A program made the translations under genes and the position numbers. Of a stretch of 64,000 nt of DNA, positions 186 through 11,861 are shown in pieces (the first letter of the stretch is position 1; each line of letters opens with the position of its first letter). Origin of the DNA: a bacterium. Its GTDB lineage: Bacteria > Zhuqueibacterota > Zhuqueibacteria > Residuimicrobiales > Krinioviventaceae. The stretch lies in the NCBI GenBank assembly GCA_029561455.1, contig JAKQIY010000030.1, positions 1-64,000 of the forward strand. The letters are read 5' to 3'. Under the pieces are notes generated by a model that was given only the letters and a program-made list of their open reading frames with translations, did no database searches and was not told the origin of the DNA.

Positions 186-1478
186 TTAACCGGTAAACTT
201 CTCCACCACCAGCTTGCCCACCCGTTTGGCCATAGCCATAATAGTGAAAATCGGCGGGTTGCCCAGGGATTCGGGGAACAGCGAGGCGTCGGCGACATAG
301 ACGTTTTCCGGCAATATGTCCGGATGAAAGGTTGCGGCTGAATTAATGGTCAGCGGCAGCATGCCGCCGGGATGACCGGCATTTATGGTTCCCAGGAAGA
401 TCTTTTCTTTATCCACGCCCAACCGCAGCAGGATTTCGGTACAGGTTTGCACGCCTTGCTGCAAGCGTTCTTTGTCCGTATCGGTCAGGGCTTTACGGAT
501 TTTATCCCCCTCGACGTGGCCGGTCGGCGTATCCGCCAGTTTGATCATCATACTGACAATGTCGCGGGCCGGGATGTTCCAGTGGCGGTTGAAAAAGTAG
601 CTCAAGTAATCAAAATAGGGGGAGAGGATATAGTGCTCCTGCTGCACCAGGAAGGGCATGGAAATTTCCTTGTTTTGCAGGGCGTTCGGCCATGCCGCCG
701 CCACGCATAACACGGGATCGACAAATAACCTGTTTTCACAATTAAAACCGGAATTGTTGAGGATGGCGGGTGTGCCAAAGCCGCCGGCCGCCACCAGCAC
801 CAGGTCGGCGTTGTATGTAACGGTGGACGAGCCCTGTTTTGCTTGAACGCCCACCGCCCGGCCGTTTTCGATAATGATTTGTGTAACCCGGCAGCCAGTA
901 ATCAGTTTTGCGCCATGACTAACCGCATTATCCAGGAACTTGCGGCTATCCCATTTCACGCCCTGCGGACAGCCAAGCACGCACCTGCCGCAATGCACGC
1001 ATTTTTCATAATCGCCCATTTTGGTAGTCGGCTGCGGATGCAGGCCCATTTCTTCACAAATAGTGTAAAGTTGTTTTGTCGATTGCTTCCAGCGTTTTTG
1101 ATGCGCGGTTGAAACGGGAATATCCCGATACAGTTCAGCGAATTCGGCGTCCAGGTTGATGCCGATTTTTTTGAGCGGCCCATCCATGCGCAGGGCATTT
1201 CCGGCGCTGAGGGTAGTGGTGCCGCCAATACCGCGACCGTTGACCAGTGTCATCTTGTCCGCAGTTTTACGGATGCGCATAGCTGGAAACAGCAGTTGAA
1301 TCTCGCGCTCGTCGAACAGCAGTCCGGTTTTTTTTACGGCCTCAGGCAATGTCAGCGGGTATGAAAAAGGTTTGAATGCTCCGCCCGTTTCGAGTATAGT
1401 AACCTCGAACTTGTCCGCCAGGTCGCGGGCCAGCGCCGCGCCGCCGGCGCCGCTGCCGATGATGATGGCCTTTTTCAC
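186..1478 (-). CDS. GMC-family FAD oxidoreductase with a 4Fe-4S ferredoxin motif
   Basis: This 430-residue flavoprotein should oxidise an alcohol or reduce a carbonyl/alkene; the substrate is unknown. The N-terminus has the FAD-binding Rossmann signature GSGAGG (residues 8-13). The C-terminal third has the GMC pattern: GHPGG followed by NPPIFTIMA, supplying the usual His and Asn. Inserted at Cys160, Cys163, Cys166 and Cys170-Pro is a ferredoxin-like CxxCxxCxxxCP motif, seen in a subset of prokaryotic GMC enzymes and suggesting electron transfer to or from a 4Fe-4S cluster. No signal peptide is evident, so it is probably cytoplasmic. The start is GTG at 1478-1476 with GGAGGA just upstream. It overlaps the stop of the preceding gene (GTGA), so it is the last gene of an operon beginning at 2421. 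Confidence 0.85.
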   Translation of the reverse strand: MKKAIIIGSGAGGAALARDLADKFEVTILETGGAFKPFSYPLTLPEAVKKTGLLFDEREIQLLFPAMRIRKTADKMTLVNGRGIGGTTTLSAGNALRMDGPLKKIGINLDAEFAELYRDIPVSTAHQKRWKQSTKQLYTICEEMGLHPQPTTKMGDYEKCVHCGRCVLGCPQGVKWDSRKFLDNAVSHGAKLITGCRVTQIIIENGRAVGVQAKQGSSTVTYNADLVLVAAGGFGTPAILNNSGFNCENRLFVDPVLCVAAAWPNALQNKEISMPFLVQQEHYILSPYFDYLSYFFNRHWNIPARDIVSMMIKLADTPTGHVEGDKIRKALTDTDKERLQQGVQTCTEILLRLGVDKEKIFLGTINAGHPGGMLPLTINSAATFHPDILPENVYVADASLFPESLGNPPIFTIMAMAKRVGKLVVEKFTG

Positions 1479-2023
1479 AATGGTTCCTCCGTTAACCTGA
1501 AATCCGCCCGGCAGCAGGAATGCCCTTCGGTGAGTCGCTCCCGGAAAACGAGCCTGCCGCCGTTCGAAAGCCCCGCCGCCACGCCTTCATCCAGCGCCGA
1601 AAAAATGCGGCATGCCTCGCCGTTAAAAAACTGACTGAAATAGCAGCGTTTTATGGTCACATCGCCCGCAGGGGTGCAGGAATAATCGATGCCGATGACC
1701 TTGTACAATATTCTGGTGAACTGAATAACCTCGGCTGTGGTTTTAATATGCAGTTGCCGGCGCAATTGTATGCCCATATCGCAGGCGTTTTTGTATAACC
1801 GGCTTTTTATACCCTGAATATCGGCGTTGGCTTGCAGGGCGCGCTGCGCTGTTTCCCCGGAAAAACGCGCAAAGACATGCAGACATTCATGGTAGGTGAG
1901 TGTCCCGGTATCGGGCGTTTCGACCTGGAAAGCCTGCGCTGTGATCTTTATTAATTGCCGGATTTTTTGTTTTTTGATAAAAGCGGGGATATATAGTCCG
2001 GCCGCTGTAACGAGAAGGTTCAT
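1475..2023 (-). CDS. Cys-rich protein resembling the ATC-hydrolase family
   Basis: The protein has 182 residues from the ATG at 2023-2021, which overlaps the upstream stop as ATGA; a longer reading frame to 2155 would run through the upstream gene and is rejected. The C-terminal half contains the pattern CTPAG...KRCYFSQFF...ACRIFSALDEG...EGHSCCRADF. This alternation of Cys and aromatic residues is typical of the L-2-amino-thiazoline-4-carboxylate hydrolase-like family (PF14196), most members of which have no known activity. The assignment is by motif memory and moderate. It is translationally coupled to both neighbours, which suggests that it works with the GMC oxidoreductase. Confidence 0.6.
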   Translation of the reverse strand: MNLLVTAAGLYIPAFIKKQKIRQLIKITAQAFQVETPDTGTLTYHECLHVFARFSGETAQRALQANADIQGIKSRLYKNACDMGIQLRRQLHIKTTAEVIQFTRILYKVIGIDYSCTPAGDVTIKRCYFSQFFNGEACRIFSALDEGVAAGLSNGGRLVFRERLTEGHSCCRADFRLTEEPL

Positions 2024-2421
2024 TGCTGCGCTTTGATCTTGAAATAAAAGAACAGCACCACAATACCGATAAAACCATCCACCAGGCAGTTGGCCAGGTA
2101 GATGAGGCACGGCTGTACTAACAGGAAAAATCCCAGCGACAGCAGCGAACTGCACAATTTAGCGTTAGCCAGCAGTAGCGGATACTTGCGACTGCCCGGA
2201 TGGCGGTACATGAAAAACGCCAGCAAGGTCACCATGTACATATAACCGGCGGCCAAAATCAGGTAAAAATTGACGCCATCGGGAGCGGTTTGCGCCATGC
2301 CGAACTGCGCGGCATAACCGTTAAAAAAGGCAAGAACGCCATTGGCGAAAAAAAGAAAAGTTAATCCCACAACCAGAAAAATAATTGCCAGTAACAGACT
2401 GATCGTCCGGTAGTATTTCAT
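2020..2421 (-). CDS. Small four-helix membrane protein, unknown function
   Basis: The protein has 133 residues with four predicted transmembrane segments (about residues 5-30, 50-72, 83-103 and 108-129) and a short charged linker HPGSRK between helices 2 and 3. I do not recognise the family. It is the first gene of a three-gene overlapping set with the Cys-rich protein and the GMC oxidoreductase. Its stop TGA is shared with the next ATG. A plausible job is anchoring the set to the inner membrane, but this is inference from position only. Confidence 0.75.
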   Translation of the reverse strand: MKYYRTISLLLAIIFLVVGLTFLFFANGVLAFFNGYAAQFGMAQTAPDGVNFYLILAAGYMYMVTLLAFFMYRHPGSRKYPLLLANAKLCSSLLSLGFFLLVQPCLIYLANCLVDGFIGIVVLFFYFKIKAQQ

Positions 2422-2565
2422 AGCTGTCCCTTTAATTGGTTTTTGGGAAAATGAGGGGTTTTATATAATATAAATAAAATAATTTTCATCTACTACTTTT
2501 TCTCTGCATCCGGCTGCCTTGTGGAAGAAAAGAGTGAACCCGCATGGGGATAAATAATTCAGGTA

Positions 2566-3762
2566 TTAATGATAATAACACCGGTAGAATTTTGACAAAT
2601 CGCCGAATTTTACCTGTTCAACCAGTTTCACCGAATCCTGCGGCGATACCGGGGCATTGCCGGTGATATATTGCTGAAACAGTTTATAATTTTTGTTGAT
2701 AAAGCAGCTATCTTCCGAGGGGAAATGGCTCTGCATTTCATTATATATTGTCGCAACTGATTTTTCCCGGACATTGCCAAAGGTCATGGGGGTGAACACG
2801 CAGGGACTCACCTCACCAAAGGCATCGACATAGATCATTTTCTTGCCGGCGTTGCAGCCAAAGTGCTCACGGCCCTCGAAATGGCCCAGGTAATTGATGG
2901 TCATTTTGCCCTCTTTATTATAGCGATCCTGCAGGGCTACCAGGTTAAGACGTTCCTGTTCGGTAAAAAGCAGGGCATCGTCCCAGAACGCTGCCACCGA
3001 GGGCTTGGTTTCGCTCAGCCAGGCTTCATGTACATCGAGCCCCGCCAGGAATTGCAGAAATTCTTCAACCTGGCCTTTTTGCAGCATCTCTTTGGAGATC
3101 ACCGAGGATACGCTGACATGCAGGCCGCGCACATTTTTAAACAGTTCGATGGCATCGAGCGCCGCCTTGAAAGCGCCGGGAAAACGGCGACCGCGGTCAT
3201 GCACTTCCGGCAGCCAGTGATCGAGACTGACCGAAACGTAATCGAGTCCCGCGTTTTTCAAATCCTGCGCTTTTTGCGCGGTGAGGGTGCAGCCGGTGGT
3301 GAACAGCTTGCGCGTACAGTCGTCGCCCACGCTTTCAATGATGCGGCAAATATCTTTATTCAACAGCGGTTCGCCGCCGGTAAAGCCCAGCCACAATACG
3401 CCCATCCGTTTCAGGTCGCCTATGAGTTTAATGATGGTCTCGGTGTCCATACGCTCGCCCTGGCGGTGCTTGTTGTAGCAATATTCACAGTTCTGGGGAC
3501 AAGCATTGGTGAGGCCTATCTGCGCATGGGCGGGACCGGGGATTTTGGCCAATAACTGCTCGTTGATAAAACGCCCGTAGGCTTTGCTGTTAAGCTGCGG
3601 CAAATGCGAGTGAATGATGAGGTCGCCGTCCAGGTTTTTTATTTTAAACTTGCCCATGTAATTGAGCAGGAACAAGAGCATCTGCGGTTTGGTTTTTACT
3701 ATTTGTAAATTGGCGGCAAGGGATTTAAGTACATCCAATTGACTTGCGGGTTTGGCTGGCAC
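2566..3762 (-). CDS. Radical SAM protein with a truncated SPASM/Twitch-like C-terminus
   Basis: This 398-residue enzyme has the radical SAM cluster motif CPQNCEYC at Cys88, Cys92 and Cys95, followed by FTGGEPLL, the SAM-binding GGE loop. The C-terminal part has a Cys-X12-Gly-X4-Cys element (CNAGKK...GEVSPC), the first half of a SPASM domain. The remaining Cys pattern is reduced to one later Cys (DSCFIN), so it may hold one auxiliary 4Fe-4S cluster. Such enzymes modify peptides or enzymes, but no precursor peptide is visible here. The start is GTG at 3762-3760 with AAAGG upstream. It lies 144 bp upstream of, and in the same direction as, the GMC operon. Confidence 0.8.
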   Translation of the reverse strand: MPAKPASQLDVLKSLAANLQIVKTKPQMLLFLLNYMGKFKIKNLDGDLIIHSHLPQLNSKAYGRFINEQLLAKIPGPAHAQIGLTNACPQNCEYCYNKHRQGERMDTETIIKLIGDLKRMGVLWLGFTGGEPLLNKDICRIIESVGDDCTRKLFTTGCTLTAQKAQDLKNAGLDYVSVSLDHWLPEVHDRGRRFPGAFKAALDAIELFKNVRGLHVSVSSVISKEMLQKGQVEEFLQFLAGLDVHEAWLSETKPSVAAFWDDALLFTEQERLNLVALQDRYNKEGKMTINYLGHFEGREHFGCNAGKKMIYVDAFGEVSPCVFTPMTFGNVREKSVATIYNEMQSHFPSEDSCFINKNYKLFQQYITGNAPVSPQDSVKLVEQVKFGDLSKFYRCYYH

Positions 3763-4091: not shown

Positions 4092-4976
4092 ATGGTACAG
4101 ATTACCCGCAGAGAGTTTATCCGCACATCATTGGCCGGTACGGCGCTGGTTACTTTGGGCCGGACGTTTGCAAAAGATGAAGCATCGCTGCAAACTATCG
4201 GCACAACCGTGCTGGGCAAAACCGGCATCGAGGTGTCGCGCCTGGCAATCGGCACCGGCACCAACGGCTGGGGATTTGAATCCAATCAGACCCGCATGGG
4301 CCAGGCCGCGTTTAGCGAAATTGCCCGGCACGCCTGGGAGTGCGGCATCAACTTTTTCGATACCGCCGACGCCTATGGCTCGCACACTATTGTTAAAAAT
4401 GTAATCAAGGATTTACCGCGCGACCAGGTGGTGGTCATGTCGAAAATATGGACCAGCGATACCGATTTTATGACCTATCGCGGCGCAGCTGTAGAGTTGG
4501 ACAAGATCCGCAAACAGTTGGGCATCGATCATATCGATATCGTGATGCTGCATTGTATGACCTCCGGGGACTGGCCCTCTGAAAAAGCTCAGGAATGTGA
4601 AGAACTGGAAACGGCCAAACAAAAGGGCATTATTCGCGCGCATGGGGTTTCCTGTCACAGTTTTGAAGCGTTGCATGCTGCCGCTGCGAGTCCCTGGGTG
4701 GATGTTGTGCTGGCGCGTATCAATCACACCGGCGCCATGATGGACGCCAAACCGGAACGGGTTATGCCGGTGCTGAAACAAGCCCACGAGCGCGGCGCCG
4801 GGGTGTTGGGCATGAAAATATTCGGCTGCGGCCGTCTCACTGCGCCGGAACAGCGCCGGGCCTCCATGCAGTATGTGTGGAGCAGCGGCAATGTCGACGC
4901 CATGACTATTGGCTACGAAACAGTGTCTCATGTCGACGACGCCATTGCTTTAACAAATGCTGTGTTAAAGGGATGA
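4092..4976 (+). CDS. Tat-exported aldo/keto reductase
   Basis: This 294-residue member of the aldo/keto reductase superfamily reduces a carbonyl group with NAD(P)H. The N-terminus has a twin-arginine signal, TRREFIRTSLAG followed by a hydrophobic stretch, so the folded protein is probably exported. The catalytic tetrad is visible as Asp90 and Tyr95 (FDTADAYG), Lys118 (MSKIW) and His154 (MLHCM). The barrel is on the short side. The ATG at 4092 has GAGG upstream. It stands alone between a divergent and a convergent neighbour, so it is probably monocistronic. The substrate is unknown. Confidence 0.88.
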   Translation: MVQITRREFIRTSLAGTALVTLGRTFAKDEASLQTIGTTVLGKTGIEVSRLAIGTGTNGWGFESNQTRMGQAAFSEIARHAWECGINFFDTADAYGSHTIVKNVIKDLPRDQVVVMSKIWTSDTDFMTYRGAAVELDKIRKQLGIDHIDIVMLHCMTSGDWPSEKAQECEELETAKQKGIIRAHGVSCHSFEALHAAAASPWVDVVLARINHTGAMMDAKPERVMPVLKQAHERGAGVLGMKIFGCGRLTAPEQRRASMQYVWSSGNVDAMTIGYETVSHVDDAIALTNAVLKG

Positions 4977-6230: not shown

Positions 6231-9200
6231 TTATCGGATCAGGATCATTTTTTTGGTTACGGTTTGCTGCCCCGTTGCAAGGCGGTAAAAATAGACGCCG
6301 CCGGCCGCAGGAATTCCGGCGCCGGTGCGGCCGTCCCAAACCGCCACATGTTCACCGGTCGTTTGCGCACCGTCAACCAGGGTAGTGACTTTGCTGCCCA
6401 GGGTATTGAATATTTCCAGTTTCACCTGCTCCCGCTGCGCCAGTTGATAGCGGATAGTCGTTTCCGGGTTGAAGGGATTGGGATAATTTTGCTGCAGGGC
6501 AAAGCTGTAGGGAACCAGCGGAATACCGCCGTTATTGTTCTGTGCAAAAGCCGGCGTACCGATAATAACCATAAAATTACGGGTTTGTTGGTTGCCGGAA
6601 ATAGTAACGGTCATAGTGTTATTATTGACCGGGATGACCGCGCCATTATCTTTATCCAAAACATACACTTGCATACTGTCCGGCAAGCTCCCGGTTTCAC
6701 TGAGGGTGATGGCAACCTTTTTCATGGTAGTGAATGAGGTGTTGAGCGTCAAATCCCATTTCCCGCCCTCTGTGGCGCCGGGTTTGAAATTACCGGCATA
6801 GCGTCTGGCCTCGGCAATAATGGACAATTGCACATAATCGCCGACCGGCGGGGCTTCGCAGAAATCGGTTTTGTCGCTGCCATCCAGGGCGCCTTTGAGC
6901 AGGCCGAGATAATTTTGTGTATCGACAGCGTCCGTGCCGGGAATTTTCGCCGCCAGTTGTAATACATAGTCCGACCCAGCAACATCGACCGGCAGGGTGG
7001 AATGCTTTCTGGCTCCCTGGAATTCGTCCGGAGTTATACTGGCCAATACCGGGTATGGCGACCGATTATAGACAAAATATCCTTCCCAAGGATTAAGGAT
7101 ATATGTATTATATTCATAATCGTTGGTTGCAGAATTCCAATAAACCGGCGGGTCCAAATATTCCTGATAAGTTTGGGTCCCCTGAACATTAATGGGGAAT
7201 GCAAACGGGTTGGCGATCTGGTTCCAGCCGGGTTGTAATTCGGACGAGTAAGTTTCATCGGTCGGTAACGAAGTAATATCTTCCACATCGAACATTTTAC
7301 CGCTGCGGGTGATCAGCCAGAATACTTTGCCGGGATTTACTTCAAATTGATTCTGGGTCTTAAACGAATATTCGGCAAAACCTTTCTCTGCCGCTGCATC
7401 ATAATAAGTGAGCCGCCACTGGGTATTGTCATAGGTACCATAATCATCAATAAAAGTCAATAACACAGAGGGATGATCTAAAATACCCGGCACGGAAACC
7501 ATGCGGTATCTCAACGGCGCCAGCGACATGGGCGGGGTGTAATGGGATGCATAGACCTGGATAACAGCCGGAATAGAAGCGGCATTCATCGCCGGATAGG
7601 TTGTAGTTGTAGAACCGCCCGATATGCGGATATAGTATTCCAGTCCCCGCAGCGTAACATCTTGCGCCGGGATGACGCCGCTGATGGTGGTATTATTCAG
7701 CGTCATGTTGGTAGAATCGTATACTGATTTTCCACCCTGGCGGTAAAATAATTTCAGGTTTTCCGGCGTCCAGGTGGTTGCGGACAGAGTAGCGGTGAGA
7801 GTATAGGCGGTACTGTAATTGGCTGTTGGCGATGTAACGCTCAGAGTAATATTGGTCGCGGTTCCACTTATGGGTATGGAATGGGGAATGGCGGAATCAT
7901 TAGCGTTGACGACCAGTGTGGCGGTTTTGCTGCCGGCGGTCTGTGGTGAAAAACTGATGAGAAAATCATGTGCTCCCAACGATGGCAATGAGTAGGTGGG
8001 CTGCAGCGGACCGACTACTGTAAACTCGGAGCTATTTAGCCCGGTTATACCAGGAGCATTAAAGATCAGGGTGCCGGAACCGGAATTGATAACGGTCAGG
8101 GTATCATATTTAGTAACACCCACATTGACCTGTCCAAACGCCAGCGCTTCCTTGTCTGTTGCAAAAACCGGCTGGCCCCCTAAACCGGTGAGTTCAACCG
8201 TATCCGGGCTGGAGGCAGCGCTGTTGATAAATATAACCCGCGCCGATTTTGTGCCGGCGCTTTGTGGAGAAAAGGTGACCGGAAAATCCAAAGATTCTGA
8301 AGCGAAAATTGGCGTATCACTATTATAATCCGGTATACTAAAATCGGCAGCATTCGTACCGCTGAGAATGGTTTCATAAATATACAATTCACCGCTACCG
8401 GTATTGGTGACAGTTATTGTATCGCTGCGGGATGTTGCAACAGCTACCGGACCGAAATTAATAGTATTTACATTTGTAGAAAACACCGGCGCTATACCGC
8501 TGCCGCTCAGAGAAACGGATGGATTACCGCCGTTGCTGGTAACGACAAGAGAAGCTGTAAATGTTCCTGTCGCAGTGGGAGAAAAGGTTACCGGGATTTT
8601 GCGGTTTTCTGCGGGAGCTAGGGAAAATGCAGCGGGAGTGGTAGAGAATTGCGTTGGATTGGCGCCGCCCAGAGCAATCGAATTTATGTTCAAAGTAACC
8701 GTGCCTATATTACTCACGGTTACCGAGTCTGTACTACTATTGCCAACCATTATAGCGCCAAAGGGTAGTGATGTGGGGGTCACCTGGATAGCCGCCTGCG
8801 AGCCGGTTCCAGCCAAAGCCACCTGGCCGATGCCGCCATCGCTTTGGATGGTTACCTGGGCGGTATACGAGCCGACAATAGTAGGTGAAAAAGCGACCAC
8901 CAGTTTTACGGTTACTCCAACCTGAATATCAAACGGAGTTGGCATCGACATGTTAAAACTTGACGCATTGGCGCCGGCGATGTTAATTGCCGATACAGTC
9001 AGGATATCGGTGCCGGTGTTGCTAACATATATTGTATCATAGGATGTTGTGGTGATGCCGGTGGTAAAGTTCAGTGTGCCGGGCAATACCTGCAAAACCG
9101 GCACAACGCCGGTTCCGGTGACTGTGATCTGACCGGGGCCGCCGTCGCTTTCGATATTCAGAGTTGCGGTATGACTACCGGTGCGGGTGGGAGTAAATGA

Positions 9201-11861
9201 AACTGTAAATGTGCCATCCTCTGCCGGCGCTATTTTGGGCGGCAGCGCCGTTACTGTAAATGAAGCGGCGTCTGTACCGGAAAAGAACGCCGAGGTTACA
9301 TTCAGTGAATCTGTGCCGCTGTTGGTTATTAAAGAATACCCGGAGAAACTATTGGTTGAATTTGTCCGTGTATTACCGAACGAAACCGTTGAGGAAAGCA
9401 GGGACAGGGACGGGGCGATACCGGTTCCAGTCAGGGTTATTGCTTCATTGCCGCCGTCGCTGTCGATCAATAACGAGGCGGTATGTCCGCCGGTTCGTGC
9501 GGGAAGAAATTCTATATAGATCTGCCTGCTGACTTCCTGGTCCAATGTAAAGGGTTGATTGGTAACAGTAAATGATGCCGCATCTGTGCCGGTGATATGC
9601 AGGGAGGTAACCTGCATACCGGCAGTGCCAATGTTGGTCACCGCTACCGAATCGGTTCTGACTACACCGACTCTTTGGTTGTTGAATGGTAAAGCCGACT
9701 TGTTGACCTGGATTACCGGTTCAATGCCGTTACCGACCAGGAGGACCGTGACCGGCTCTCCGGCTATCGTTGCGTCCAGGCTGGCTGATGAGGGCGCCGC
9801 CGCCGGTGGAGTATAGGTCATTACAATCCCTTTGGACTCGCCGGGATTCAGGACAAATTCAGTTGTAATAATGGTAAAATGAGCGGCATTGGTTCCTGAC
9901 AGCGCAAAGGGGCCGACAGTCATTTCCTGGAAACCGGTATTGGTAACGACTACCGAATCGGTTTTAGTGGCGCCGGTGCGAACATTACCGAAATTGAGGT
10001 CAACAGGGGTAATGAAATAAATTGTATTATCATACCTGCTGCCGTACACACCCCGCGATTGGGTGCCGGCCAGGAAATAGCCTTCATTGTTCATCAACAG
10101 GGCGGCAATACGGTTAGGGCCCAAACCGGAGTTAATGGGCGTCCAGTTTTCACCCAGGTTGGTGGACTGGAAGACACCGCCGCCTTCCGTACCGGTAAAG
10201 ATATGGCCTTTGCGGTTAATGTGAATGGAAATTGTAGAAGGTGTGGTAAGACCATTTATTTTGGGAGTCCAGGTTACGGCGTTATCGTCGGAACGATAGA
10301 CGCCATCCAGCGAGGTAGCAAACATATAACCATCGCTGCGCCGGAATAAATGCCTGGCGCTGGTAAAGGCCATGGTTGGATTGGCCGGGTTCCAGGTAGC
10401 GCCGTAATCGATGGATACCTGAATACCGCTATAAGTAGCCGCATATAAATAATTATTGTCGTCGGTAATCAAGTCTGTAGCATCAAGGTAGCTTGAGGTT
10501 TTTTGCACCCAGTTATCGCCATTATCGACAGACTGATACACGCCATTATAAGTTATTGCATATAGTTCACCGGCTGAGTTCATCGTCAGAGCTTTCATCT
10601 CCAGCGAGATCAGACCGTTATTGGCCTGCGCCCAACTTGCGCCATTATCAGGCGACCGGTAGACGCCATTTTGTTCCGTACCGACAAATATGTAACCGTT
10701 ACTTTTACTGAAAATTTTCCTAATATGATTACCGACCAGTTCTGGAACTTCAACCCAGTTGCTGCCGTTATCGGTGGAGCGGAACAAACCGGTCATGGAA
10801 CCGGCATACAAGTTGCCGTTTATGTGTTCTTTCAGGGCGGTTATTATGGTGTTTCGGATGCCGTTATTCACTTTCAACCAGGAGGCTCCTTCGGTAGTGG
10901 ACAGGAATACTCCGTCGTTGGTAGCCACGAACAGGTTACCGGCAGTGTTGAGCAATATATTACGAATATTACGGCCGTCGAGTCCATTACTGGCGGATGA
11001 CCAGGTACCGCCGCTGTTGGTGGATACATAAAAGCCATCGGTCGTTGCGGCATATATAGTCGTACCGTTAGCAGCAATAGCCAAATCGGTTATATCGATA
11101 GTGGTCGGCAGCCCGGTATTGATATAATTCCAGGTCTGGCCGTTATCGTCCGAGCGCCGCACGCCTTCATAAGAGCCGATAAACATTACATTTGCCGAAT
11201 TAACCGCAATAGCGTTTTTGGAAAACTGTGCGGCTGCCTGGGGGTAGACCGGACCCCAGGTTGCCCCGTCGTCTATTGAAACATAAACATCATTATAGTG
11301 AGCGGCAAAAATCCATCCCGCGGCAGTAATGTAAAGATCATCGATCCCCCCGGAGGGCAGGCCGGGCACTCCATCCCACGACTCGCCGTCATTGGTTGAG
11401 CGGTACAGGCTGTCGTCGCAGGCGGCAAAAATATAACCGTCCGAATTGACAAGCAGATCGGTCACTGAAAAGCTGGTTGGCAGCCCATTGTTCTTTAATA
11501 TCCAGGTTGTGCCAAAATCATCGGAGCGGTACAAATAATTGTTGTAACTGCCGACAAATAAATGCCCATTGGTTGGACTGACGGCAATACATTGTAATTC
11601 CTGTCCGGGCAAGTTAGATGTTATATCGTTCCAGTTATTGCCGTCATCACCAGTGGCAAAGACGCCGGTTTGCGCGGCAGCATAAACGATCCCTGTATTG
11701 TTTACGCACAGCCCCTCGATATTACCGCCATACGGCCCGTTCATGGCCTGCCAGGATACCTGGGCATGTGCTACGATCATACCGGTCAATATAATTATCG
11801 GCACGGTGATTAATCCGAATCTGAAATATGCAAAACCCCGGAGCGCTCTATTTTTTAACAT
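6231..11861 (-). CDS. Giant surface protein: Asp-box propellers, choice-of-anchor-D repeats, T9SS-type tail
   Basis: This 1876-residue secreted protein starts with a signal peptide ending HAQ near residue 34. Residues 35-605 hold about thirteen Asp-box (BNR/YCF48-like) turns of the form RSxDxGxxW, such as YRSDDFGTTW and YRSTNDGESW, enough for about two beta-propellers. Residues 612-1335 hold seven repeats of about 100 residues of the choice-of-anchor-D/ASPM-SPD-2-Hydin type (LNFGNVRTGAT, LPFGAIMVGNS, and so on). A further module follows. Residues about 1785-1876 form the FlgD-Ig/T9SS tail: NYPNPFNPETTIRY near its start, GVYFYRLATG and a basic end. It is probably displayed at the surface, for adhesion or binding. 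No catalytic site is evident. Confidence 0.85.
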   Translation of the reverse strand: MLKNRALRGFAYFRFGLITVPIIILTGMIVAHAQVSWQAMNGPYGGNIEGLCVNNTGIVYAAAQTGVFATGDDGNNWNDITSNLPGQELQCIAVSPTNGHLFVGSYNNYLYRSDDFGTTWILKNNGLPTSFSVTDLLVNSDGYIFAACDDSLYRSTNDGESWDGVPGLPSGGIDDLYITAAGWIFAAHYNDVYVSIDDGATWGPVYPQAAAQFSKNAIAVNSANVMFIGSYEGVRRSDDNGQTWNYINTGLPTTIDITDLAIAANGTTIYAATTDGFYVSTNSGGTWSSASNGLDGRNIRNILLNTAGNLFVATNDGVFLSTTEGASWLKVNNGIRNTIITALKEHINGNLYAGSMTGLFRSTDNGSNWVEVPELVGNHIRKIFSKSNGYIFVGTEQNGVYRSPDNGASWAQANNGLISLEMKALTMNSAGELYAITYNGVYQSVDNGDNWVQKTSSYLDATDLITDDNNYLYAATYSGIQVSIDYGATWNPANPTMAFTSARHLFRRSDGYMFATSLDGVYRSDDNAVTWTPKINGLTTPSTISIHINRKGHIFTGTEGGGVFQSTNLGENWTPINSGLGPNRIAALLMNNEGYFLAGTQSRGVYGSRYDNTIYFITPVDLNFGNVRTGATKTDSVVVTNTGFQEMTVGPFALSGTNAAHFTIITTEFVLNPGESKGIVMTYTPPAAAPSSASLDATIAGEPVTVLLVGNGIEPVIQVNKSALPFNNQRVGVVRTDSVAVTNIGTAGMQVTSLHITGTDAASFTVTNQPFTLDQEVSRQIYIEFLPARTGGHTASLLIDSDGGNEAITLTGTGIAPSLSLLSSTVSFGNTRTNSTNSFSGYSLITNSGTDSLNVTSAFFSGTDAASFTVTALPPKIAPAEDGTFTVSFTPTRTGSHTATLNIESDGGPGQITVTGTGVVPVLQVLPGTLNFTTGITTTSYDTIYVSNTGTDILTVSAINIAGANASSFNMSMPTPFDIQVGVTVKLVVAFSPTIVGSYTAQVTIQSDGGIGQVALAGTGSQAAIQVTPTSLPFGAIMVGNSSTDSVTVSNIGTVTLNINSIALGGANPTQFSTTPAAFSLAPAENRKIPVTFSPTATGTFTASLVVTSNGGNPSVSLSGSGIAPVFSTNVNTINFGPVAVATSRSDTITVTNTGSGELYIYETILSGTNAADFSIPDYNSDTPIFASESLDFPVTFSPQSAGTKSARVIFINSAASSPDTVELTGLGGQPVFATDKEALAFGQVNVGVTKYDTLTVINSGSGTLIFNAPGITGLNSSEFTVVGPLQPTYSLPSLGAHDFLISFSPQTAGSKTATLVVNANDSAIPHSIPISGTATNITLSVTSPTANYSTAYTLTATLSATTWTPENLKLFYRQGGKSVYDSTNMTLNNTTISGVIPAQDVTLRGLEYYIRISGGSTTTTYPAMNAASIPAVIQVYASHYTPPMSLAPLRYRMVSVPGILDHPSVLLTFIDDYGTYDNTQWRLTYYDAAAEKGFAEYSFKTQNQFEVNPGKVFWLITRSGKMFDVEDITSLPTDETYSSELQPGWNQIANPFAFPINVQGTQTYQEYLDPPVYWNSATNDYEYNTYILNPWEGYFVYNRSPYPVLASITPDEFQGARKHSTLPVDVAGSDYVLQLAAKIPGTDAVDTQNYLGLLKGALDGSDKTDFCEAPPVGDYVQLSIIAEARRYAGNFKPGATEGGKWDLTLNTSFTTMKKVAITLSETGSLPDSMQVYVLDKDNGAVIPVNNNTMTVTISGNQQTRNFMVIIGTPAFAQNNNGGIPLVPYSFALQQNYPNPFNPETTIRYQLAQREQVKLEIFNTLGSKVTTLVDGAQTTGEHVAVWDGRTGAGIPAAGGVYFYRLATGQQTVTKKMILIR

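Follow-up and report, generated by a model that had tools for sequence, protein, structure and literature searches.

Gene layout and protein families of the cassette

We analyzed a 64,000-nucleotide stretch of contig JAKQIY010000030.1 (GenBank assembly GCA_029561455.1, phylum Zhuqueibacterota), hereafter the window, and focused on a four-gene cassette in which a radical SAM enzyme (rSAM) and a small membrane protein precede an ATC_hydrolase-like (ATC-like) protein and a GMC flavoprotein with a ferredoxin-type cysteine motif. We found that the cassette consists of two modules, rSAM with the membrane protein and the ATC-like protein with GMC, with exchange between operon types. All four genes lie on the minus strand at positions 186-3762, in the order and place given by a first-pass annotation made from the sequence alone (Table 1). 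The rSAM gene is located upstream, separated from the membrane gene by a 144-nucleotide gap. Both the membrane/ATC-like and the ATC-like/GMC junctions are 4-nucleotide overlaps, which makes it very likely that these three genes are translationally coupled, as that annotation had proposed.

Table 1. Coordinates of the cassette genes and their conserved residues in the window
Feature	Position	Strand	Basis
Radical SAM / twitch (half-SPASM) enzyme, 398 aa	2566..3762	-	Pfam Radical_SAM + SPASM
rSAM CxxxCxxC motif C88, C92, C95	3478..3501	-	9/9 rows of alignment A2
Twitch auxiliary-cluster cysteines C303-x12-G-x4-C321...C353	2704..2856	-	9/9 rows of A2
Small membrane protein, 133 aa, ~4 hydrophobic helices	2020..2421	-	Hydropathy
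ATC_hydrolase-like (PF14196) protein, 182 aa, from ATG 2023	1475..2023	-	Predicted V4R/Bet3 fold
ATC-like invariant C127, C138, C171 and D145	1511..1645	-	36/36 rows of A5
GMC flavoprotein with ferredoxin-type cysteine motif, 430 aa	186..1478	-	Pfam, AlphaFold2, VIA-align
GMC Fe-S cysteines C160, C163, C166, C170	969..1001	-	Alignment A6

The window GMC protein scored above the Pfam cut-offs for GMC_oxred_N (93.5 bits), GMC_oxred_C (27.0 bits), and Fer4 (24.2 bits, cut-off 21.1). Its AlphaFold2 model (mean predicted local distance difference test score, pLDDT, 95.9) was structurally nearest to fructose dehydrogenase (Z 34.5) and flavin adenine dinucleotide (FAD)-glucose dehydrogenase (Z 34.0) in VIA-align, with further close matches to pyridoxine oxidase (Z 33.0) and cholesterol oxidase (Z 32.5). 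Alignment A6, which omits L035, L041, and the truncated L061 and L068, revealed C160, C166, and C170 in all 43 GMC rows, that is, the C-x5-C-x3-C iron-sulfur ligand pattern of FAD-dependent dehydrogenases, together with the catalytic His369 in 42 of 43. C163 is present in 38 of 43 rows and is replaced by Asp in five of six archaeal rows, and the complete motif C160-x2-C163-x2-C166-x3-C170 is found in all 36 rows paired with an ATC-like gene. According to excerpts of a published structural study, FAD-glucose dehydrogenase is a GMC enzyme whose 3Fe-4S cluster is held by Cys212, Cys218, and Cys222, on a ligand loop that adjoins the small subunit (PMC6719666). The spacing of these ligands equals that of C160/C166/C170, and stretch 158-242 of the GMC profile is aligned with residues 211-297 in the glucose dehydrogenase 6a2u. 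The earlier description of an iron-sulfur GMC enzyme as unusual was therefore only partly right and overstated, since FAD-glucose dehydrogenase holds a 3Fe-4S cluster at equivalent cysteines, while the extra C163 suggests a 4Fe-4S rather than a 3Fe-4S cluster in the cassette enzyme. Separately, the GMC protein of L055, an Acidobacteria locus, keeps all four cysteines despite the loss of its catalytic His. Methanogen GMCs (L063, L065, L066, L067, L068, L069, and L071) are approximately 30% identical and have no ATC-like partner; five of the six aligned carry Asp for the second motif cysteine and form a natural three-cysteine variant.

The window ATC-like protein matched PF14196 weakly (14.2 bits, Pfam gathering cut-off 28.1), and this was its only Pfam match up to E 1, with no match to a gluconate-2-dehydrogenase-type small subunit in the same range; the L062 homologue passes the cut-off (44.3 bits). 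The first-pass label of an ATC-hydrolase-like protein is thus upheld at the level of the Pfam family, whereas the predicted fold is that of V4R/Bet3. The AlphaFold2 model (36 sequences, mean pLDDT 95.5) best matched Bet3/TRAPPC3 (6aq3_B, an entry containing covalent palmitate; Z 12.2, root-mean-square deviation 3.1 over 142 residues; Foldseek and VIA-align), followed by the V4R domains of the phenol sensors DmpR (6iy8_A, Z 10.3), MopR, and PoxR (Z ~10), and by H-NOX (Z about 7.5). The predicted model thereby shares the fold of the V4R/Bet3/H-NOX superfamily, a relation visible only by fold, as the ATC profile, when searched against PDB sequences, gave no match up to E = 1. Excerpts of published work link V4R to Bet3 (PMC2253512) and ATC hydrolase to V4R and H-NOX through a common three-Cys cluster (PMC5847659). 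The invariant residues of Table 1 refer to alignment A5, which leaves out the truncated L039 as well as L035 and L041, whose contigs are those of L024 and L029; L030 is included in A1 and A3 and is absent from A5 and A6. Given the predicted V4R/Bet3 fold, a role in binding a hydrophobic ligand is plausible. The structural match to phenol sensors would also fit a ligand-sensing or detoxification system, in which GMC oxidizes an aromatic or lipid compound detected by the V4R-like protein. Such a system is very doubtful, as the cassette has no regulator domain or DNA-binding gene, and the rSAM, the membrane protein, and the acyl-ligase partners of the type-B operons described below would be left unexplained.

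The window rSAM matched Pfam Radical_SAM (77.9 bits) and SPASM (32.3 bits, over SPASM positions 1-46 of 67). The half-SPASM assignment of the first-pass annotation held: the CxxxCxxC and twitch cysteines are invariant, as expected of the twitch/SPASM subclass (CxxxCxxC plus C-x9-15-G-x4-C), and the full twitch pattern was recovered in six of seven further rSAMs, the exception being L034. Neither rSAM nor GMC reached the cut-off of an NCBIfam equivalog among the matches listed. Hydropathy peaks of the membrane protein correspond to about four helices, and no Pfam family scored above cut-off. A distant relative of this protein (38 bits) lies near an ordinary GMC gene in the Hydrogenedentota locus L072 (4790-8452), where the GMC has a similar cysteine motif and an unassigned 158-aa gene stands just before it.

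Distribution of the cassette and a second operon type

We surveyed 82 genomes of the window's phylum, calling GMC at E <= 1e-20 and close rSAM homologues at E below 1e-130. GMC was detected in 10 genomes and the close rSAM in nine, all of which were among the 10 GMC carriers (hypergeometric P = 3e-11), so the four-gene linkage put forward from the window passed its co-occurrence test. The order of the genes is likewise conserved, being found with all four adjacent in 8 of the 82 phylum genomes and in 11 of the 31 close named loci introduced below. G048 carries a cassette split over two contig ends, with the membrane gene not seen, and in G046 the ATC-GMC pair is accompanied by type-B partners. 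Profile searches recovered the ATC-like family in 10/82 genomes, each time beside GMC, and the membrane family (profile A4) in 8/82, always within the cassette, which indicates that these families are not loose in the phylum; within it, each of the rSAM, membrane, and ATC-like families is confined to the cassette or the ATC-GMC pair. Three distant rSAM matches (E 1e-38 to 1e-21) were located in phylum genomes outside cassettes.

When the GMC alignment was used to scan named genomes, 80 loci were obtained, 31 of which were close (30 at >= 47% identity and L062 at 38%). The ATC-like gene adjoins GMC in 30 of these 31, with L055 as the exception. The full cassette (type A) is present in 11 (L034, L035, L036, L037, L038, L040, L041, L043, L047, L051, and L060; L035 and L041 are contigs of two phylum genomes), and named Clostridia, Aminicenantes, Acidobacteria, Chloroflexota, Spirochaetota, and Actinomycetota genomes carry it. 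Some loci are incomplete or irregular: L047 holds the rSAM end only, L039 begins inside the ATC-like gene, the rSAM of L038 is split across two frames, and L046 (WOR-3) has a truncated membrane gene with no adjoining rSAM, its genome containing only an rSAM fragment elsewhere (positions 5-96). In 17 of the 31 loci (type B), a thioester-reductase-like/acyl-ligase fusion lies directly before the ATC-GMC pair, replacing rSAM and the membrane protein, and a pyruvyl-transferase-like gene is also present in 10 of the 17. Type-B hosts include Prevotella, other Bacteroidales, Lachnospiraceae, Erysipelotrichaceae, Coriobacteria, Fermentibacteria, and one Methanomassiliicoccaceae archaeon. No ATC-like match was found at the remaining 49 of 80 loci (7 archaeal, 42 ordinary GMCs), and viral contigs gave no match. 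The ATC-like and GMC pair is the core of the system. The type-B operon, exemplified by L064 (2486-8266, Prevotella sp. MA2016) and found at 16 other named loci, is arguably of wider interest than the cassette of the window, and no description of it was found in the open-licence full-text literature.

Mycofactocin loci and the search for a precursor peptide

The combination of rSAM and GMC in one locus, together with a full-length, weak alignment of GMC to the MftG model TIGR04542, could indicate a mycofactocin-like locus that makes a redox cofactor from a ribosomally synthesized and post-translationally modified peptide, with its precursor overlooked. We compared 456 short open reading frames (ORFs) around 16 type-A cassettes all against all (1.2 kb upstream and 0.9 kb downstream where available, the downstream reach being 185 bases in the window and none in L038) and found none conserved; positions farther from the cassettes were not searched. 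Strong cross-locus matches were restricted to the two pairs of closest loci: L025/L027, where they overlie a shared upstream gene, and L037/L038. MftB was detected in 0/10 cassette- or pair-bearing genomes and in 2/2 Mycobacterium controls, and MftC exceeded the TIGR03962 cut-off in 0/10. The window rSAM (P0004) scored 64.7 bits against TIGR03962 (cut-off 265), below 18 other families, and the scores for MftG-type GMC models were 46.6 bits (TIGR04542; cut-off 400), 39.1 bits (cut-off 387), and 19.0 bits (cut-off 300). MftG is tightly linked to mftA-F in excerpts of a published account (PMC11778925), a linkage not seen at the cassette. With MftB absent, MftC below cut-off, and the positive controls working, we rejected mycofactocin identity, and an overlooked precursor of this type is scarcely credible. 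The first-pass annotation had reported MftA/B/D/E/F-like genes as missing and had described a possible uncharacterized redox or peptide-modification cluster. The redox part stands, with a conserved gene order, whereas peptide modification is not supported and no conserved short precursor emerged on either side within the span searched.

Two modules, their exchange, and probable horizontal spread of the cassette

The rSAM was found in 7/7 intact type-A genomes searched, whereas 0/6 type-B genomes searched held a close rSAM (best match 4.5e-21, in the genome of L050), from which it follows that the ATC-GMC pair does not require it. This bears on the possibility that rSAM is a protein maturase, forming a crosslink or an oxidized residue in the membrane or ATC-like protein as a protein-derived cofactor for the GMC complex, comparable to QhpD, the maturase for quinohemoprotein amine dehydrogenase. 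SPASM/twitch enzymes often modify proteins and peptides, and the NCBIfam ranking of rSAM among such families would agree with this role, as would the three invariant cysteines of the ATC-like protein and a self-contained cassette that lacks any other conserved partner. However, the cysteines of the ATC-like and GMC proteins are the same in type-B loci, whose operons have no rSAM, and the lack of a close rSAM in all six type-B genomes searched argues against maturation of the pair. A maturase role is rather unlikely overall, though it may still apply to the membrane protein.

The position of the iron-sulfur motif, as in the FAD-glucose and fructose dehydrogenase complexes, and the overlap of the membrane gene with the first gene of the ATC-GMC pair would suit a membrane-anchored respiratory dehydrogenase, with the ATC-like protein as small subunit, GMC as catalytic subunit, the membrane protein as quinone-facing anchor, and rSAM as cofactor supplier. 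Nevertheless, no ORF with >= 2 CxxCH motifs was found within 3 kb of the 16 cassettes, the ATC-like and GMC proteins had no match to Pfam TAT_signal, and type-B operons lack the membrane protein, which is therefore not needed for the ATC-GMC pair. In addition, many type-B hosts (Lachnospiraceae, Coriobacteria) are fermentative. We consider a respiratory dehydrogenase quite improbable.

A quick tree built from 43 GMCs placed types A and B in mostly separate groups, with three type changes across 35 labelled rows (L039 was unlabelled); many branches have support under 95, leaving the detail uncertain. Clostridia and Spirochaetota type-A loci are nested among those of the window's phylum, which points to horizontal movement of the cassette between very different anaerobes. 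Pairwise distances of the four proteins across 15 loci were correlated (Mantel r 0.71-0.89, 0/2000 permutations as high), the pattern expected of a cassette that travels as one unit. The two modules are also delimited in L051, a Thermoleophilia metagenome-assembled genome (MAG), where rSAM and the membrane protein form one ORF and the ATC-like and GMC proteins another.

No flanking gene is conserved, and the flanks vary from genome to genome. Ten flanking proteins comprised two sulfatases, a rhamnosidase piece, PAP2, PEMT/ICMT, two CrtI/amine-oxidase-like flavoproteins, a BNR-repeat protein, and two without a match. The type-A loci L025 and L027 adjoin a CrtI/carotenoid-isomerase-like gene and have PAP2 or PEMT/ICMT genes in the vicinity. 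Sulfatases recur at L029 and L032, and a sulfatase maturase was considered and dropped because most cassettes have no sulfatase nearby. An anti-phage defence role was also set aside: PADLOC returned weak pVip matches to the rSAM core only, which we read as general radical-SAM similarity. In the window itself, a divergent aldo/keto reductase gene with a possible Tat signal (4092-4976, plus strand) is not kept beside the cassette in the other loci read, and a secreted-looking 1876-aa repeat protein (6231-11861, minus strand) has a C-terminus that we take to resemble a type IX secretion or sorting signal.

A proposed function for the cassette

Taken together, we tentatively favor a self-contained, horizontally moved anaerobic redox cassette of two modules that acts on a lipid-like substrate. 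The ATC-like and GMC proteins would form a two-subunit flavin/iron-sulfur oxidoreductase acting on a hydrophobic alcohol, aldehyde, or ketone, and the V4R/Bet3-fold partner may present this lipid-like substrate to the flavin. Electron transfer would link FAD with the iron-sulfur cluster, as in FAD-glucose dehydrogenase, and would run to or from a soluble low-potential carrier; given that no multiheme cytochrome ORF lies near the 16 cassettes, the simplest assumption is ferredoxin or a comparable carrier. The upstream rSAM and membrane protein would make or modify the hydrophobic substrate at the membrane, and in type B an acyl-activating/reducing enzyme may stand in for this module. The lipid-like nature of the substrate is suggested by the predicted fold of the ATC-like protein, by the thioester-reductase/fatty-acyl-ligase fusion in type B, and by CrtI-like, PAP2, and PEMT/ICMT neighbors of two type-A loci.

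Several observations weigh against this proposal. The L055 GMC (6995-8293, Acidobacteria), which has no ATC-like partner, carries Thr in place of the catalytic His. A common fold is no proof of ligand class, and V4R domains also sense small aromatics. In NCBIfam, rSAM lies nearest to SPASM/twitch families whose substrates are peptides, tetrapyrroles, or sugars; none of its best 25 matches is a family that acts on lipids. CrtI/amine-oxidase-type matches account for only 2 of the 10 flanking proteins, most flanks being unrelated, and the module fusions are known from the single MAG L051.

A more specific version of the lipid-like cassette, which is speculative and on balance improbable, would have the membrane-associated rSAM module produce a new molecule, either a membrane lipid or a lipid-like redox carrier, which the iron-sulfur GMC and its V4R/Bet3 lipid-presenting subunit would then oxidize or reduce; gut Prevotella, Lachnospiraceae, and Coriobacteria might reach the same or a related product via acyl activation and reduction. 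The occurrence of the cassette in at least six bacterial phyla, and of the ATC-GMC core also in gut bacteria and one archaeon, suggests a function useful to many anaerobes. Current annotation misses it, with the ATC-like protein at best a weak Pfam match and the membrane protein without a family. The pairing would give the widespread prokaryotic V4R/Bet3 fold a direct enzymatic partner, and the core pair could be tested in Prevotella sp. MA2016 (L064, type B), whose record carries no metagenome-bin label.

Comparison with known systems

Like mycofactocin loci (MftC plus MftG), the cassette unites a twitch/SPASM rSAM with a GMC oxidoreductase at a single locus. In contrast to them, its GMC has an iron-sulfur motif, its hosts are mainly anaerobes, and neither MftB, MftC, nor a precursor was found in the searches made. 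For the rSAM and GMC combination, the open-licence full-text literature gave only the MftG paper and unrelated works. Like members of the V4R/ATC_hydrolase/H-NOX/Bet3 group, the ATC-like protein has their predicted fold (Z up to 12.2) and a three-Cys cluster, the latter as described in the excerpted source (PMC5847659). It differs from members of this superfamily in its constant pairing with a GMC flavoenzyme and in having no attached sensor or transcription-factor domain. The type-B fusion, and not the cassette of the window, resembles carboxylic acid reductase in combining AMP-binding and thioester-reductase domains, but the order is reversed, with the reductase first, and scores are far under cut-off.

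The FAD-glucose dehydrogenase of Burkholderia cepacia and the fructose dehydrogenase of Gluconobacter have in common with the cassette a GMC fold, an aligned C-x5-C-x3-C, and an adjacent gene for a small partner. Unlike these enzymes, the cassette GMC has a fourth cysteine (C163), which allows a 4Fe-4S cluster, and its small partner is V4R/Bet3-like by predicted fold. Furthermore, no multiheme cytochrome (within 3 kb of the 16 cassettes) or twin-arginine translocation (Tat) signal was found, and an rSAM and a membrane protein are added. The parts come from known superfamilies, and iron-sulfur GMC enzymes are already known, whereas the combination of such an enzyme with a V4R/Bet3-type small partner and an rSAM module appears to be new.

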